The translations under genes were made by a program, and so were the position numbers. A DNA stretch of 64,000 nucleotides from Salinibacterium sp. G-O1 (GTDB lineage: Bacteria > Actinomycetota > Actinomycetes > Actinomycetales > Microbacteriaceae). Of this stretch, positions 15,203 to 33,526 are shown piece after piece (within the stretch, counting starts at the first letter, position 1; each line of letters begins with the position of its first letter). The notes under the pieces are model-generated. The model was not told the DNA's origin and made no database searches. It saw only the letters and a program-made list of their open reading frames with translations. The DNA lies in contig NZ_JASISV010000004.1 in the NCBI RefSeq assembly GCF_030063305.1, forward strand, positions 62,001 through 126,000. The letters run 5' to 3'.

Positions 15203-15260
15203 CGAGACCTCCACTTTTGCTGCCTCTGGCGCCGCAGACCCAGCAGAAGTGGAGGTCTCG
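15203..15260 (+). repeat. 58-bp hairpin repeat, copy A
   Basis: Left arm CGAGACCTCCACTTTTGCTG (15203-15222), 18-nt loop, right arm CAGCAGAAGTGGAGGTCTCG (15241-15260). Arms match at 19 of 20 positions; the exception is a U.G pair when read as plus-strand RNA. Copies with the same 20-18-20 layout and identical right arm occur at 31485 and 32481. It lies between the convergent siderophore-interacting protein and oxidoreductase genes, with no T-run after it. A shorter GCGAGACCTCC is repeated just upstream at 15187. Confidence 0.9.
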
Positions 15261-30443: not shown

Positions 30444-31403
30444 ATGTTCATGCCAGATAGTGCCAACCCCATGACTGCCGCCCCGGAGACGTACAGCTAC
30501 CTGGGCCCGGCAGGCACCTTTACCGAGGCGGCGCTCAAACAGGTGCCCGCCGCCGTCGGTAAGTCGTGGCACTCCGTGAACAACGTGGGCGAGGCGCTGG
30601 ACGACGTGGTCACCGGGCGTTCCGTGGCCGCCATGATCGCGATGGAGAACTCCATCGAGGGTGGCGTGAGTGCCACGCAGGACGCCCTGGCGAGCATCCC
30701 GCACCTGCGGATCATCGGCGAATATCTCGTGCCCGTCAATTTCGTGCTCGTCGCCCGGCCGGGAACGGCGCTCGCCGACGTGAAGGTGGTCAACGCGCAT
30801 CCTGTCGCCTACGCCCAGACGCACCTCTGGCTCGATGCCAACCTTCCGAGCCACGGGCACATCCCGTCCACCTCGAACGTCGCCGCCGCGGCATCCCTGC
30901 TGCAGAATGACCTCGCCGACGCGGCGGTGGCGCCTCCCGGCATCACCGACCATCACGACCTGGTCGTGCTCGCCGAGGGGATCGGCGACAACCCGAACGC
31001 GGTCACCCGGTTCGTGCTGGTGTCGCGCATCGCCGAGCTTCCGGAGCCGACCGGCAGCGACAAGACCTCGATCATCGCGGAGCTTCCGGATGACACGGCC
31101 GGCCGCCTCCTCGACATGCTCGAGCAGTTCGCCACCCGCGGCGTGAACATGAGCCTGCTGGAGTCGCGCCCCATCGGCGACGCCCTCGGCCGCTACAGGT
31201 TCGTCATCGACCTCGACGGTCACATCCTCGATGAGAGGGTCGCGGATGCCCTGCTCGGGCTCAAGCGATTCAGCCCCCGTGTCACGTTCCTCGGCAGCTA
31301 CCCTCGCGCAGACAAGATGCCGATCCAGGTCAGCCCGCGCTACGACAACGACGCCTTCGTGGACGCCCGGGACTGGCTGCGCGGGCTCATCGCGGGGGAG
31401 TAG
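30444..31403 (+). CDS. pheA: Prephenate dehydratase
   Basis: About 319 residues. The N-terminal dehydratase domain begins YSYLGPAGTFTEAAL and contains AMENSIEGGVSATQDAL. The C-terminal ACT domain includes GVNMSLLESRP, the ESRP motif that binds phenylalanine for feedback inhibition. It converts prephenate to phenylpyruvate. Starts at 30444, 30450 or 30471 are possible; none has a clear ribosome site, so the mRNA may be leaderless or nearly so. The end runs into a GCC-rich tract and the hairpin repeat copy B. Confidence 0.93.
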   Translation: MFMPDSANPMTAAPETYSYLGPAGTFTEAALKQVPAAVGKSWHSVNNVGEALDDVVTGRSVAAMIAMENSIEGGVSATQDALASIPHLRIIGEYLVPVNFVLVARPGTALADVKVVNAHPVAYAQTHLWLDANLPSHGHIPSTSNVAAAASLLQNDLADAAVAPPGITDHHDLVVLAEGIGDNPNAVTRFVLVSRIAELPEPTGSDKTSIIAELPDDTAGRLLDMLEQFATRGVNMSLLESRPIGDALGRYRFVIDLDGHILDERVADALLGLKRFSPRVTFLGSYPRADKMPIQVSPRYDNDAFVDARDWLRGLIAGE

Positions 31404-31484
31404 CCGCGCCGCGCCGCCGCACTCCCGCCGCGCCGCCGCCGCTCCTGCCGCCGCGCCGCGCCGCCGCGCTCCCACCACCTCCGC
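31404..31484. repeat. GCC/GCG low-complexity tract before hairpin copy B
   Basis: Imperfect CGCCGC/GCGCCGCC repeats fill the gap between the pheA stop and the 58-bp repeat. No coding or regulatory signal is recognised. The sequence is of the kind expected from slippage beside a structured element. Confidence 0.6.
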
Positions 31485-31542
31485 CGAGACCTCCACTTCT
31501 GCTGGGTCCAGCAGCGTGCAGGCAGCAGAAGTGGAGGTCTCG
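31485..31542 (+). repeat. 58-bp hairpin repeat, copy B (perfect 20-bp arms)
   Basis: Left arm CGAGACCTCCACTTCTGCTG (31485-31504), 18-nt loop (31505-31522), right arm CAGCAGAAGTGGAGGTCTCG (31523-31542): all 20 pairs match. It ends 4 bp from the stop codon of the DUF559 gene. The loop sequence is unrelated to the loops of copies A and C. Confidence 0.92.
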
Positions 31543-31546
31543 ATGC

Positions 31547-32443
31547 TCACCGCCCCGAGAGCACCCGCTGGATGCGGGCGACCAGCTCGGTCGGGTTCCG
31601 GAGGTCGTCCACGTTTATCTCCATCACGTACCAACCGGCGGCTTCGAGCTGCGAGCGTCGGGTCATGTCCTTGCGCCATTGACGCGCCGTCCGGTGGTAG
31701 TCGCCCTGGTACTCCAGCACCACCTTTTTTTCGGGGAACGCGAGATCCAGCCGCACATTGCGCCCGGTTTCGGTGGAGACGACGACGTAATTGACCGCGA
31801 AATCCCGGATGCCGGCGAGCGTCAGGATGACCCGGAGGTGCGACTCCTGCCGCGACTCGGCGCGAGCGTCCAGCAGGTCGACGGCCTGGGTTGCGGTGCG
31901 AAAACCGCGGCAGCCCCGCCGCTGGAGGGTGCGCTCACGCAGATCCTCCAGTGAGCACAGTGGAGTACGCCAATGGATGAAATAGTCGCCGACGGCAACG
32001 AGGTCCTCGAGCGCCAGCTGGGTGCTGAGGTCGATCCACGTGCGCGCGGCGGTCGTATGCCTGACCGCTCCCCGCGAGGTGATGTCGGCGGGCGCGATAA
32101 CGGTCCGATGGCCGAGAATCCCCGCAGCGTGGGGCGCGCGGCTCGGATGTGGTGCCGAGACATCCAGCTCAGGTCGGTGCTCGAGCGCCAGCGGCAACGG
32201 GGCGCCGAGGATCAGGGCAGCCGTGGCATGGCTGAAATACAGCTCGGGAGCGAGCCGGACGGCGAACATCGCGCACCGGTCAAGCAGGGTCGAGGGGCCG
32301 CCGCGCCGAATACCCCACACCGTGCGGTCGAGATCGCTCGCGCGGAGGCGTGCCGGCGACAGTCCCGATCCGGCGACGGCGAACGGCCGCCCAGCGAGGT
32401 GGGGAGGAAGCGGCGCAGGATGCATCGGCCGATGATCCCGCAT
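31547..32443 (-). CDS. DUF559 / Vsr-like nuclease-fold protein with N-terminal AbiEi-like region
   Basis: 298 residues. The N-terminal two thirds (for example VWGIRRGGPSTLLDRCAMF and YFSHATAALILGAPLP) resemble the winged-helix and linker part of actinobacterial AbiEi/DUF559 proteins. The C-terminal domain (about 195-298) has the endonuclease-like pattern: Glu196/Glu200 in ESRQESHLR, Asp233 in RLDLAFPEKK, and Glu244-Tyr-Gln in VVLEYQGDYH, with a late WYVMEINVDDL strand. Family function is not established; a nuclease or DNA-binding role is inferred from the fold. The gene is bracketed by two copies of the 58-bp hairpin repeat in the same orientation, 4 bp after its stop and 37 bp before its start. 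Start 32443 or the ATG at 32425. Confidence 0.8.
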   Translation of the reverse strand: MRDHRPMHPAPLPPHLAGRPFAVAGSGLSPARLRASDLDRTVWGIRRGGPSTLLDRCAMFAVRLAPELYFSHATAALILGAPLPLALEHRPELDVSAPHPSRAPHAAGILGHRTVIAPADITSRGAVRHTTAARTWIDLSTQLALEDLVAVGDYFIHWRTPLCSLEDLRERTLQRRGCRGFRTATQAVDLLDARAESRQESHLRVILTLAGIRDFAVNYVVVSTETGRNVRLDLAFPEKKVVLEYQGDYHRTARQWRKDMTRRSQLEAAGWYVMEINVDDLRNPTELVARIQRVLSGR

Positions 32444-32480
32444 CGAGCGACACTGTCGGCCGAATCATCCACACCGCAAT

Positions 32481-32538
32481 CGAGACCTCCACTTTTGTGG
32501 CCTGGACGCTCGTGGAGACAGCAGAAGTGGAGGTCTCG
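32481..32538 (+). repeat. 58-bp hairpin repeat, copy C
   Basis: Left arm CGAGACCTCCACTTTTGTGG (32481-32500), 18-nt loop, right arm CAGCAGAAGTGGAGGTCTCG (32519-32538), identical to the right arms of A and B. The left arm has two U.G pairs and one mismatch in plus-strand RNA. It lies between the DUF559 start and the end of the lipid-kinase gene, 4 bp from the latter's stop codon. Confidence 0.9.
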
Positions 32539-32542
32539 GCGC

Positions 32543-33526
32543 TCAGGCCGCGGGCACGCGAACCGTGAGGGCGCGGTGGTCGACCCACGCGTGCACGCTC
32601 TTGGCCTCGCCAAACTCGTCGCCGTCGAGCTGGAACTCCTGCGGAGTCTCCACCGTCATCTGCAGGGACTTGCCCGTGACGTAGGTCACATCCCGCACGT
32701 CCACCGACAGGTCGATGATTTTTCGGCCGATGGCAGACTTTCGCAGCACGCCGTTTTCCCACGCGATCTTGCGCCAGACCATCGCCCAGCCAAAAGGTCC
32801 CCGGGGGCGCAGGGCGGCGACGTCGAGGATGCCGTCGTCGGGTTTCGCCTCCGGCATGAGCAGCAGACCGCCCGGCAGCAGGCCGCAATTGCCGATCATG
32901 ATCGAGTGCGCCTTGATGGATTTCTCGGGGTCGTCGTCGATCCGATACGTGAGCTTCACCGGCTTCAGTTCGGGCAATGAGCGCGCGATTCCGTCGACGT
33001 AGGCCAGCCAGCCAACGGCCTTCTTCAGCGCGGTGCTGGTGTTTTTGATCATCTTCGCGTCGAGGCCGAGCCCCGCCATGACCATAAACGCGTGTTCCTC
33101 CGAGTGGCCATCGTCGCGCACAATTCTCGCCATCCCGACGTCGATCACGCGGTCTTCGCCGCCGAAGGCAGTCGCCACACTCGCGCCAAGATCCGACAGG
33201 GGCAGCTCGAGGTTTCGCGCCAGCAGGTTGCCGGTTCCGGAGGGAAGCAGCGCGAGAGCGATCCCCGAGCCGCGAAGGCCCTCGGCGACAGCGCGGACAG
33301 TACCGTCGCCGCCGGCGGCAAGCACAACGCTCGCGCCCCGCCGGATGGCGCTGGCTGTGGCACCCTGGCCGGCATCCTGAAGCGACGTCTCGAACCACGC
33401 TGTCTTCGCCCAGCCGTGAGCCTCTTCGGCCGCGTCGACGGAGGCTCTCAGCTTCCTGATGTCGACCTTGATGGGATTGAAGACCACCGCAGCCCGCTTT
33501 TTGCGCTTGCGGAGGGCATTGTTCAC
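32543..33526 (-). CDS. Diacylglycerol/lipid kinase family protein (YegS/DgkB-like)
   Basis: About 327 residues. The nucleotide-binding domain starts AAVVFNPIKVDIRKLRA and has the signature VVLAAGGDGTVRAVAEGL and the glycine-rich ALLPSGTGNLLARNL. The second domain contains FMVMAGLGLDAKMI and DDGILDVAAL. Enzymes of this family phosphorylate diacylglycerol or related lipids. The start is uncertain: GTG 33526 has AGGAG directly against it, and earlier in-frame starts would run into the divergent serS. Confidence 0.87.
   Translation of the reverse strand: MNNALRKRKKRAAVVFNPIKVDIRKLRASVDAAEEAHGWAKTAWFETSLQDAGQGATASAIRRGASVVLAAGGDGTVRAVAEGLRGSGIALALLPSGTGNLLARNLELPLSDLGASVATAFGGEDRVIDVGMARIVRDDGHSEEHAFMVMAGLGLDAKMIKNTSTALKKAVGWLAYVDGIARSLPELKPVKLTYRIDDDPEKSIKAHSIMIGNCGLLPGGLLLMPEAKPDDGILDVAALRPRGPFGWAMVWRKIAWENGVLRKSAIGRKIIDLSVDVRDVTYVTGKSLQMTVETPQEFQLDGDEFGEAKSVHAWVDHRALTVRVPAA

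Follow-up and report, generated by a model that had tools for sequence, protein, structure and literature searches.

A 64,000-nt stretch of the genome of Salinibacterium sp. G-O1, hereafter the window, holds a gene for a DUF559 protein that sits between two copies of a 58-bp hairpin repeat. Do the gene and the hairpins belong to one unit, and if so, what might the protein do to the hairpins? REP palindromes offer a precedent: a single class of enzymes, the HUH transposases, has been linked to them, and how they spread is described as poorly understood (PMC8266576). REPtrons (RAYT/TnpAREP) are described, in excerpts of two papers, as a gene beside its own palindrome, with dispersed copies and repeat-specific enzymes; the RAYT gene is mostly single-copy, and those excerpts report no evidence of its own mobility (PMC8266576, PMC3733652). 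Here, we argue that the window gene and its two hairpins likely form one REPtron-like unit built on an unrelated, homing-type endonuclease, which would bind the hairpin arms and cut near their variable centre.

The window locus and the hairpins of the host genome

Table 1. Positions of the nuclease gene, its parts, and the hairpin copies, counted from the first letter of the window.
Feature	Position	Strand	Remarks
Hairpin copy A, solitary 58-bp palindrome	15203..15260	.	Convergent genes on either side by simple ORF calls
Hairpin copy B, 58-bp palindrome, 20-18-20	31485..31542	.	Downstream of the nuclease gene, 4 bp from its stop codon
Nuclease gene, 298 aa	31547..32443	-	N-terminal half weakly AbiEi-like; C-terminal DUF559/MTES_1575 domain, predicted EDxHD/Vsr fold
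Nuclease domain, residues 196–298 (Glu196, Glu200, Asp233, Glu244, His250, Asp259)	31550..31858	-	Alignment; sequence and fold match to 3r3p
Residues 54–148, presumed DNA-binding part	32000..32284	-	Weak similarity to AbiEi antitoxin; putative role
Hairpin copy C, 58-bp palindrome	32481..32538	.	Upstream of the gene, 37 bp from its start codon; centre probably opposite in orientation to that of B

The short distances from the gene to copies B and C, which an earlier note on this DNA had pointed out, are borne out by the coordinates (Table 1), and the right arms of the two copies are identical, as it had said. Each hairpin in the window consists of two 20-bp arms around an 18-bp centre. Folding of the single-stranded DNA gave z = –7.6, –8.9, and –4.2 for copies A, B, and C, respectively, and none of 200 shuffles of each was equally stable. 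The earlier note had further described a 1-kb cassette between two repeats of the same orientation. The 1-kb bracketing holds, but the shared orientation probably does not: over the central 12 nt, copies B and C have an identity of 0.42 in direct and 0.75 in inverted comparison. The inverted value lies above 99% of a cross-locus null, whereas over the central 10 nt the inverted similarity merely equals the 99% level of that null. The outer bases are mirrored between the two copies as well (GC-hairpin-AT versus AT-hairpin-GC). The hairpin is nearly symmetric, and the centres of B and C probably face opposite ways.

The direct neighbours of the nuclease gene encode prephenate dehydratase and diacylglycerol kinase, and no methylase or toxin gene was found as a direct neighbour. 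No Rfam intron match fell within positions 31300–32700. We also rejected a known RNA family for the hairpin itself, since its best Rfam match scored 25.5 bits against a gathering score of 74 bits. Imperfect repeats of GCCGCGCCGCGCCGCCGC lie at positions 31403–31476, in the gap that separates hairpin B from the prephenate dehydratase gene.

The window protein passes the Pfam DUF559 model (PF04480; 24.5 bits, gathering cut-off 20.6) and reaches 25.2 bits with MTES_1575, under the cut-off of 38.2; the MTES_1575 model matched 25 of 27 family members at E ≤ 0.1. The domains that Pfam recognized in the nuclease protein were MTES_1575, DUF559, and DUF2726, with no Y1 (HUH) transposase among them. An AlphaFold2 model built from 27 sequences had a pLDDT of 93.7. 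The catalytic domain of I-Bth0305I (3r3p) was the sole PDB sequence match of the C-terminal domain at E ≤ 1 (E = 1.6 × 10–4), and Foldseek matched the same structure by fold (E = 8.5 × 10–4, TM 0.76 over the target domain). AbaSI was a weaker Foldseek match than 3r3p, while the row ranked above 3r3p was a Toxoplasma mitoribosomal protein with a TM of 0.28 and an rmsd of 16.5. The acidic residues picked out by the earlier note (Glu196, Glu200, Asp233, and Glu244) lie at the positions it gave. Across an alignment of 24 genus sequences, Glu200, Asp233, His250, and Asp259 do not vary, and Glu244 hardly does. Because His250 aligns with a tryptophan in 3r3p, we do not claim the same catalytic set as in that enzyme. 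By sequence and modelled fold, the C-terminal half is a nuclease of the EDxHD/Vsr type, not a RAYT. The N-terminal half (residues 54–148) gave a weak PADLOC match to AbiEi (E = 7 × 10–5); the Pfam AbiEi model did not match the window protein and reached E ≤ 0.1 in two of the 27 members. PADLOC also gave a weak match of the window protein to a methyl-directed REase.

We then searched the host genome (3.14 Mb, six contigs) with the hairpin arm, allowing up to three mismatches. The search returned 29 matches, and a reversed control returned none. The matches make up 14 pairs, always spaced by 38 bp, and one copy with a weaker second arm, that is, 15 hairpins with 20-bp arms and an 18-bp centre that varies chiefly in its inner 10 bp. 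By simple ORF calls, nine of the 15 lie in gaps between convergent genes, a class that makes up 11 of 50 adjacent gene pairs in the window. Inspected by eye, the bases next to most copies are asymmetric (GC on one side, AYG on the other), apparently regardless of the orientation of the hairpin centre across the 15 copies; this asymmetry may reflect a target preference. No GTAG or CGTC tag was seen by eye beside these hairpins.

The exact two-arm pattern of the window hairpin, which recovers eight of the 15 host hairpins and which diverged copies in other genomes could escape, occurred in one of 60 genomes, the host itself, and was absent from 26 other genomes of the genus. Single-arm matches with up to three mismatches were found in 26 of 299 family genomes including the host, about as many as had reversed-control matches. 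One of the family genomes (G241) holds four identical single-arm matches. With the exact form confined to the host and single-arm matches at about the level of the control, we rejected a repeat common to the relatives. A plasmid or phage origin was not upheld either (partial weak matches in 5 of 72,556 plasmid records and none in 50,697 phage records).

Gene-specific palindromes around the nuclease family

In Microbacteriaceae, genes of this family usually have a palindrome of about 58 bp on either side; its sequence is specific to the gene, and gene and palindromes change together. Homologues occur in 15 of 27 genus, 243 of 299 family (Microbacteriaceae), and 112 of 296 phylum genomes, and their flanks often carry a pair of palindromes, one on each side, of the same build but of different sequence. 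The five homologue loci read in the host genome (the window gene, L091, L163, L164, and L165) have five different palindromes; the homologue gene at L164 is split into two pieces. At L165 (G000:C1:634000–645000, G000 being the host genome), a DUF559 gene is bracketed by palindromes of 77–79 bp, at 1819–1897 and 2907–2983, which are of another design (CCAAATGAAGGAGAT...).

Palindromes were scored in 68 Microbacteriaceae loci, namely 69 of the 71 best places (two that had already been read were skipped) minus one with an internal stop. This sample includes the window gene and is not blind, as it was ranked by likeness to an alignment of partly inspected loci. Palindromes with a score of at least 14 lay on both sides in 41 of the 68 loci and on at least one side in 57. 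By contrast, control genes had such palindromes in none of 38 upstream and three of 48 downstream flanks, and Markov shuffles in 0.3% of 680. "Far ORF" windows within the same loci (10 upstream, 26 downstream) gave one and six matches at score 14; they were not used as a control because they can reach the same hairpins. Upstream and downstream flanks resembled each other above the cross-locus 95th percentile in 62 of 68 loci (median score 35 versus 12), and above the 99th percentile, a null inflated by same-genus pairs, in 25. Counter-cases are the six loci with unlike flanks and the 27 in which a palindrome of score 14 is missing on one or both sides; at L252, the two bracketing palindromes differ from each other. 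The earlier note had proposed asking whether DUF559 genes are flanked more often than random genes; in this sample they are, by palindromes that are specific to each gene. Nor is the repeat spread without a link to DUF559, since the homologues mostly lie between palindromes peculiar to them.

The length of the palindromes is nearly fixed. Among the 98 that passed, 58 bp was the commonest length (17 palindromes), and 54 measured 55–60 bp. The copy at the 3' end of the gene is as regular as the upstream one and often overlaps the stop codon. A second palindrome pattern (GAGTTGCCCACTT arms, with a gap of 14–40 allowed) was present in 14 of the 299 family genomes at 1–10 copies each, and the control gave none. 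With totals of 40–66 allowed, the lengths among the 58 copies listed of 60 were 56 in 50, 55 in three, and 57 in five; a length of 56 becomes 58 when the outer C..G is counted. Palindromes found by this pattern only lie 27–76 bp from the matched homologue in five genomes. All 14 genomes carry a homologue, but so do 243 of 299, which makes this a weak pointer. By eye, matching palindromes on both sides were seen at eight of 14 loci from the same class outside the genus, versus about one of 15 from other classes of the phylum. The trait therefore seems to belong to this actinobacterial class.

Solitary cognate palindromes are scattered in the genomes tested and, in the host genome, often lie between convergent genes. 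The bracketing palindromes of G022, G023, and G024 are dispersed in those genomes (7, 27, and 7 arm matches, respectively), with none in the other 24 genus genomes. Five of seven genomes of the Plantibacter group hold 12–20 arm matches of their palindrome, and two hold none. In a member of this group, G270 (L404 and other stretches), 13 places have at least one hairpin arm, and no cognate nuclease gene was found in the stretches read, which cover nine of the 13. Hairpins may thus outlive their gene.

How do gene and palindromes come to change together? Among 39 genus loci, nine synteny groups have two or more members. Nine locus labels and one mixed label change 11 times on the protein tree, the minimum possible being nine, and the pheA and g3 synteny groups are not single clades. 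The gene itself rarely moves: different species have it at shared loci, and the protein tree mostly agrees with these. One protein of the pheA-locus clade is encoded at another locus (L072, G003:C23:78643–79524), a possible relocation of the cassette. At the 33 synteny-group loci, palindromes were present on both sides in 22, on one side in eight, and on neither in three, so that 11 of 33 lack one or both. Relatives that keep the gene at the window locus without repeats, a case foreseen by the earlier note, did not turn up: in all seven genus loci where the gene has the prephenate dehydratase and diacylglycerol kinase genes as neighbours, palindromes of other sequence bracket it.

In 27 of 27 locus pairs, the two palindromes of a locus were more like each other than like the orthologous palindromes of other species. 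These pairs were drawn from the 22 two-palindrome loci, are not independent, and include L175, a locus with mismatched palindromes. We read this within-locus likeness, seen at the sequence level, as concerted evolution. Furthermore, the two copies that flank a gene had centres alike above the 99% cross-locus null in 13 of the 52 loci with a central 12 nt that is not self-complementary, six in direct and seven in inverted comparison, the window gene being among the inverted. Selection for binding sites alone would not copy the centre; shared centres therefore point to copying of DNA between the sites. Arm similarity also increased with protein identity (Spearman 0.23; none of 200 permutations was as high), although shared descent contributes part of this correlation. 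Arms were shared in nine of nine pairs above 80% protein identity, in 53% of 30 pairs at 60–80%, and in 8% of 218 pairs at 50–60%. When the protein was split into parts, none was clearly marked as setting the arm specificity.

These results bear on an alternative in which the palindromes are operators through which the AbiEi-like half of the protein represses the nuclease gene along with a small regulon, while the nuclease domain acts on some other target. The AbiEi of Streptococcus agalactiae autoregulates via inverted repeats, according to excerpts of PMC7319586. The weak AbiEi similarity of the N-terminal half and the place of the upstream palindrome, 37 bp before the start codon, would suit such a role, and operators would be expected to co-evolve with their protein. 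Nevertheless, we consider operators an unlikely explanation. An equally regular copy lies at the 3' end of the gene, often over the stop codon; nine of the 15 host hairpins occupy convergent gaps, a poor position for an operator; the centres on the two sides are alike in a quarter of the testable loci; and hairpins form the joints of gained or lost segments, as described below.

Segments bounded by hairpins

Where one species has a single hairpin, another may have two with a segment in between, which in some cases is the nuclease gene itself. The joints are exact in the Plantibacter group, in which identity is 92–95%. The clean empty site that the earlier note had proposed to look for exists in this group: G222 has L-hairpin-gene-hairpin-R where G270 has L-hairpin-R, with exactly one hairpin, and the flanks are 94.5% and 92.2% identical over 400 bp. 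In G632 and G311, the arrangement is hairpin, TetR-family regulator and short-chain dehydrogenase, hairpin, gene, hairpin; in G099, it is hairpin, gene, hairpin. At a second Plantibacter site, G632 and G311 carry 2.15 kb between two hairpins where G270 and G099 have a single one, and the single hairpin of G099 looks, by eye, like a chimera that joins the left half of one of those two hairpins to the right half of its partner. Such differences may be gains or losses; ordinary homologous recombination between two 55-bp repeats can delete a segment and could also yield them.

For four host hairpins that lie alone between convergent genes, the corresponding gaps were read in relatives. At the M48-peptidase site, eight of 12 relatives have hairpin-free gaps of –4 to 61 bp, and the other four contain other sequence. 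At the transglutaminase/MFS site, the gap measures –4 to 14 bp in four of 12 relatives; seven contain other sequence, and one has lost synteny. The gap at the SpoU site is 5 bp in one of the four relatives that are still syntenic. At the nucleoside phosphorylase/hydrolase site, where the host has its solitary hairpin and one relative a 6-bp gap, six genomes (G007, G013, G015, G017, G022, and G023) have a nuclease gene. Of the five that remain, three contain other DNA, and synteny is lost in two. Palindromes lie on both sides of four of these six genes and on one side in G022, and none is clear in G013. 

In G023, a 5.4-kb hairpin-bounded stretch of other genes lies where G022 has a different gene. 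At L160 and L158 (G022 1211000–1217000; G023 709000–719500), hairpins are orthologous in position and the sequence diverges directly after one of them. Two relatives carry other repeats at the M48-peptidase site (L328, G023:C1:1284100–1285000, and L324, G015:C17; GGTTGAGTAGGCC... and TATCGAAACC), perhaps another dispersed palindrome family.

The palindromes might alternatively be bidirectional terminators or passive repeats that the host recombines, the nuclease gene being merely one further cargo. The excess of hairpins in convergent gaps (nine of 15 copies, compared with 11 of the 50 neighbouring gene pairs of the window) would be expected of terminators, and segments without the nuclease gene are likewise bracketed and lost. 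Neither a terminator nor a passive repeat, however, explains why a family present in 243 of 299 genomes is usually bracketed by palindromes that are specific to each gene and vary along with the protein, or why the hairpin length is nearly fixed. We give this possibility slightly less credence than operators.

A proposed mechanism and its relation to known systems

We return to the reading of gene and hairpins as one unit with a homing-type endonuclease. Fold, symmetry, and length led us to propose that the protein would bind as a dimer with a subunit on each 20-bp arm, with a spacing given by the near-fixed 58-bp length, and that its EDxHD/Vsr-type domains would cut in or near the variable centre of 10–18 bp. 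In excerpts of a review, I-Bth0305I is described as dimerizing on a target of nearly 60 bp (PMC3943268), which would fit a 58-bp palindrome of near-fixed length. The break would be repaired against another hairpin, copying sequence between sites, so that gene-flanking and dispersed copies would stay alike. Repair after the loss of a segment would leave one hairpin, and repair may also carry hairpin-bounded segments into a new hairpin; concerted evolution and the chimeric joints suggested this homogenizing and joining role. We infer that the protein binds and cuts the hairpins, that their spread is active, and that the enzyme, rather than the host alone, would cause copying and segment exchange. 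Entry into a hairpin-free site lies outside the model.

The unit resembles a REPtron in that a nuclease gene is bordered by its cognate palindrome, copies of which are dispersed in the same genome. It differs in its enzyme, predicted to be of the EDxHD/Vsr type versus the HUH tyrosine transposase (IS200/IS605-like Y1) of REPtrons, in a palindrome of about 58 bp and near-fixed length versus 20–40 bp for REP, and in the lack of a GTAG or CGTC tag at the host hairpins as seen by eye. With the EDxHD homing endonuclease I-Bth0305I, the modelled protein shares the Vsr-like catalytic fold and a multi-domain build, and the reported dimer target of nearly 60 bp (PMC3943268, in excerpt) is close to the 58 bp found here. 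The match to I-Bth0305I covers the nuclease domain. Moreover, the setting is not that of a mobile intron: the window gene lies between two host genes with no intron found there, and the candidate targets are palindromes scattered in the genome as well as flanking the gene.

Integron attC sites are imperfect palindromes with conserved arms and a variable centre; they are lineage-specific and bound gene segments that come and go. The palindromes described here share all of these traits, but they are dispersed and accompanied by a nuclease, in contrast to the tyrosine recombinase of integrons. The AbiE type IV toxin-antitoxin system pairs AbiEi with the AbiEii nucleotidyltransferase, and no such direct neighbour is present at the window locus. 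The MTES_1575 Pfam domain, which the C-terminal domain here resembles, occurs as a Vsr REase domain in HEPN-linked defence proteins of more than 2000 residues with helicase, HEPN, and wHTH domains; the window protein has just 298 aa, and excerpts of that study make no mention of palindromes (PMC3710099).

A defence or restriction-like system, with a nuclease directed against incoming DNA and hairpins that mark self or act as decoys, would be in keeping with a nuclease fold common to AbaSI and with the weak PADLOC matches to AbiEi and a methyl-directed REase. We think this improbable, given direct neighbours that encode prephenate dehydratase and diacylglycerol kinase and no methylase or toxin, and such a system gives no reason for hairpins at segment joints. 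Least probable of all is another transposase, such as a true RAYT, that spreads the hairpins in trans: their dispersal is REP-like, but their sequence tracks the nuclease locus by locus, and the ends of the 15 host hairpins show no GTAG tag by eye.

The system combines the life-style of a REPtron, without the REPtron enzyme or tags, and an EDxHD nuclease domain without an intron setting. No description of hairpins that bracket DUF559 genes was found in the CC-licensed PMC literature, which leaves most subscription journals outside. It looks like an undescribed selfish or genome-shuffling system. In its fullest form, which we rate as evenly balanced between true and false, the proposal is an unrecognized class of mobile palindromes, in which a stand-alone EDxHD enzyme would recognize its own 58-bp double-stranded palindrome, homogenize the copies by cut-and-copy repair, and make exchange joints for the nuclease gene and for unrelated cassettes of host genes, and which would be widespread in this actinobacterial class.

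If this is true, a homing enzyme plays the part that HUH transposases play in REPtrons, and to some extent the system acts as integron cassettes do. A second, unrelated enzyme paired with palindromes would mean that a REP-like life-style arose at least twice in evolution, and the recognition rules of long-target nucleases could be read from dozens of natural protein-palindrome pairs. In addition, a widespread protein of unknown function, found in 243 of 299 Microbacteriaceae genomes, would gain a role, and the lineage-specific palindromes and variable segments in these genomes would be accounted for.
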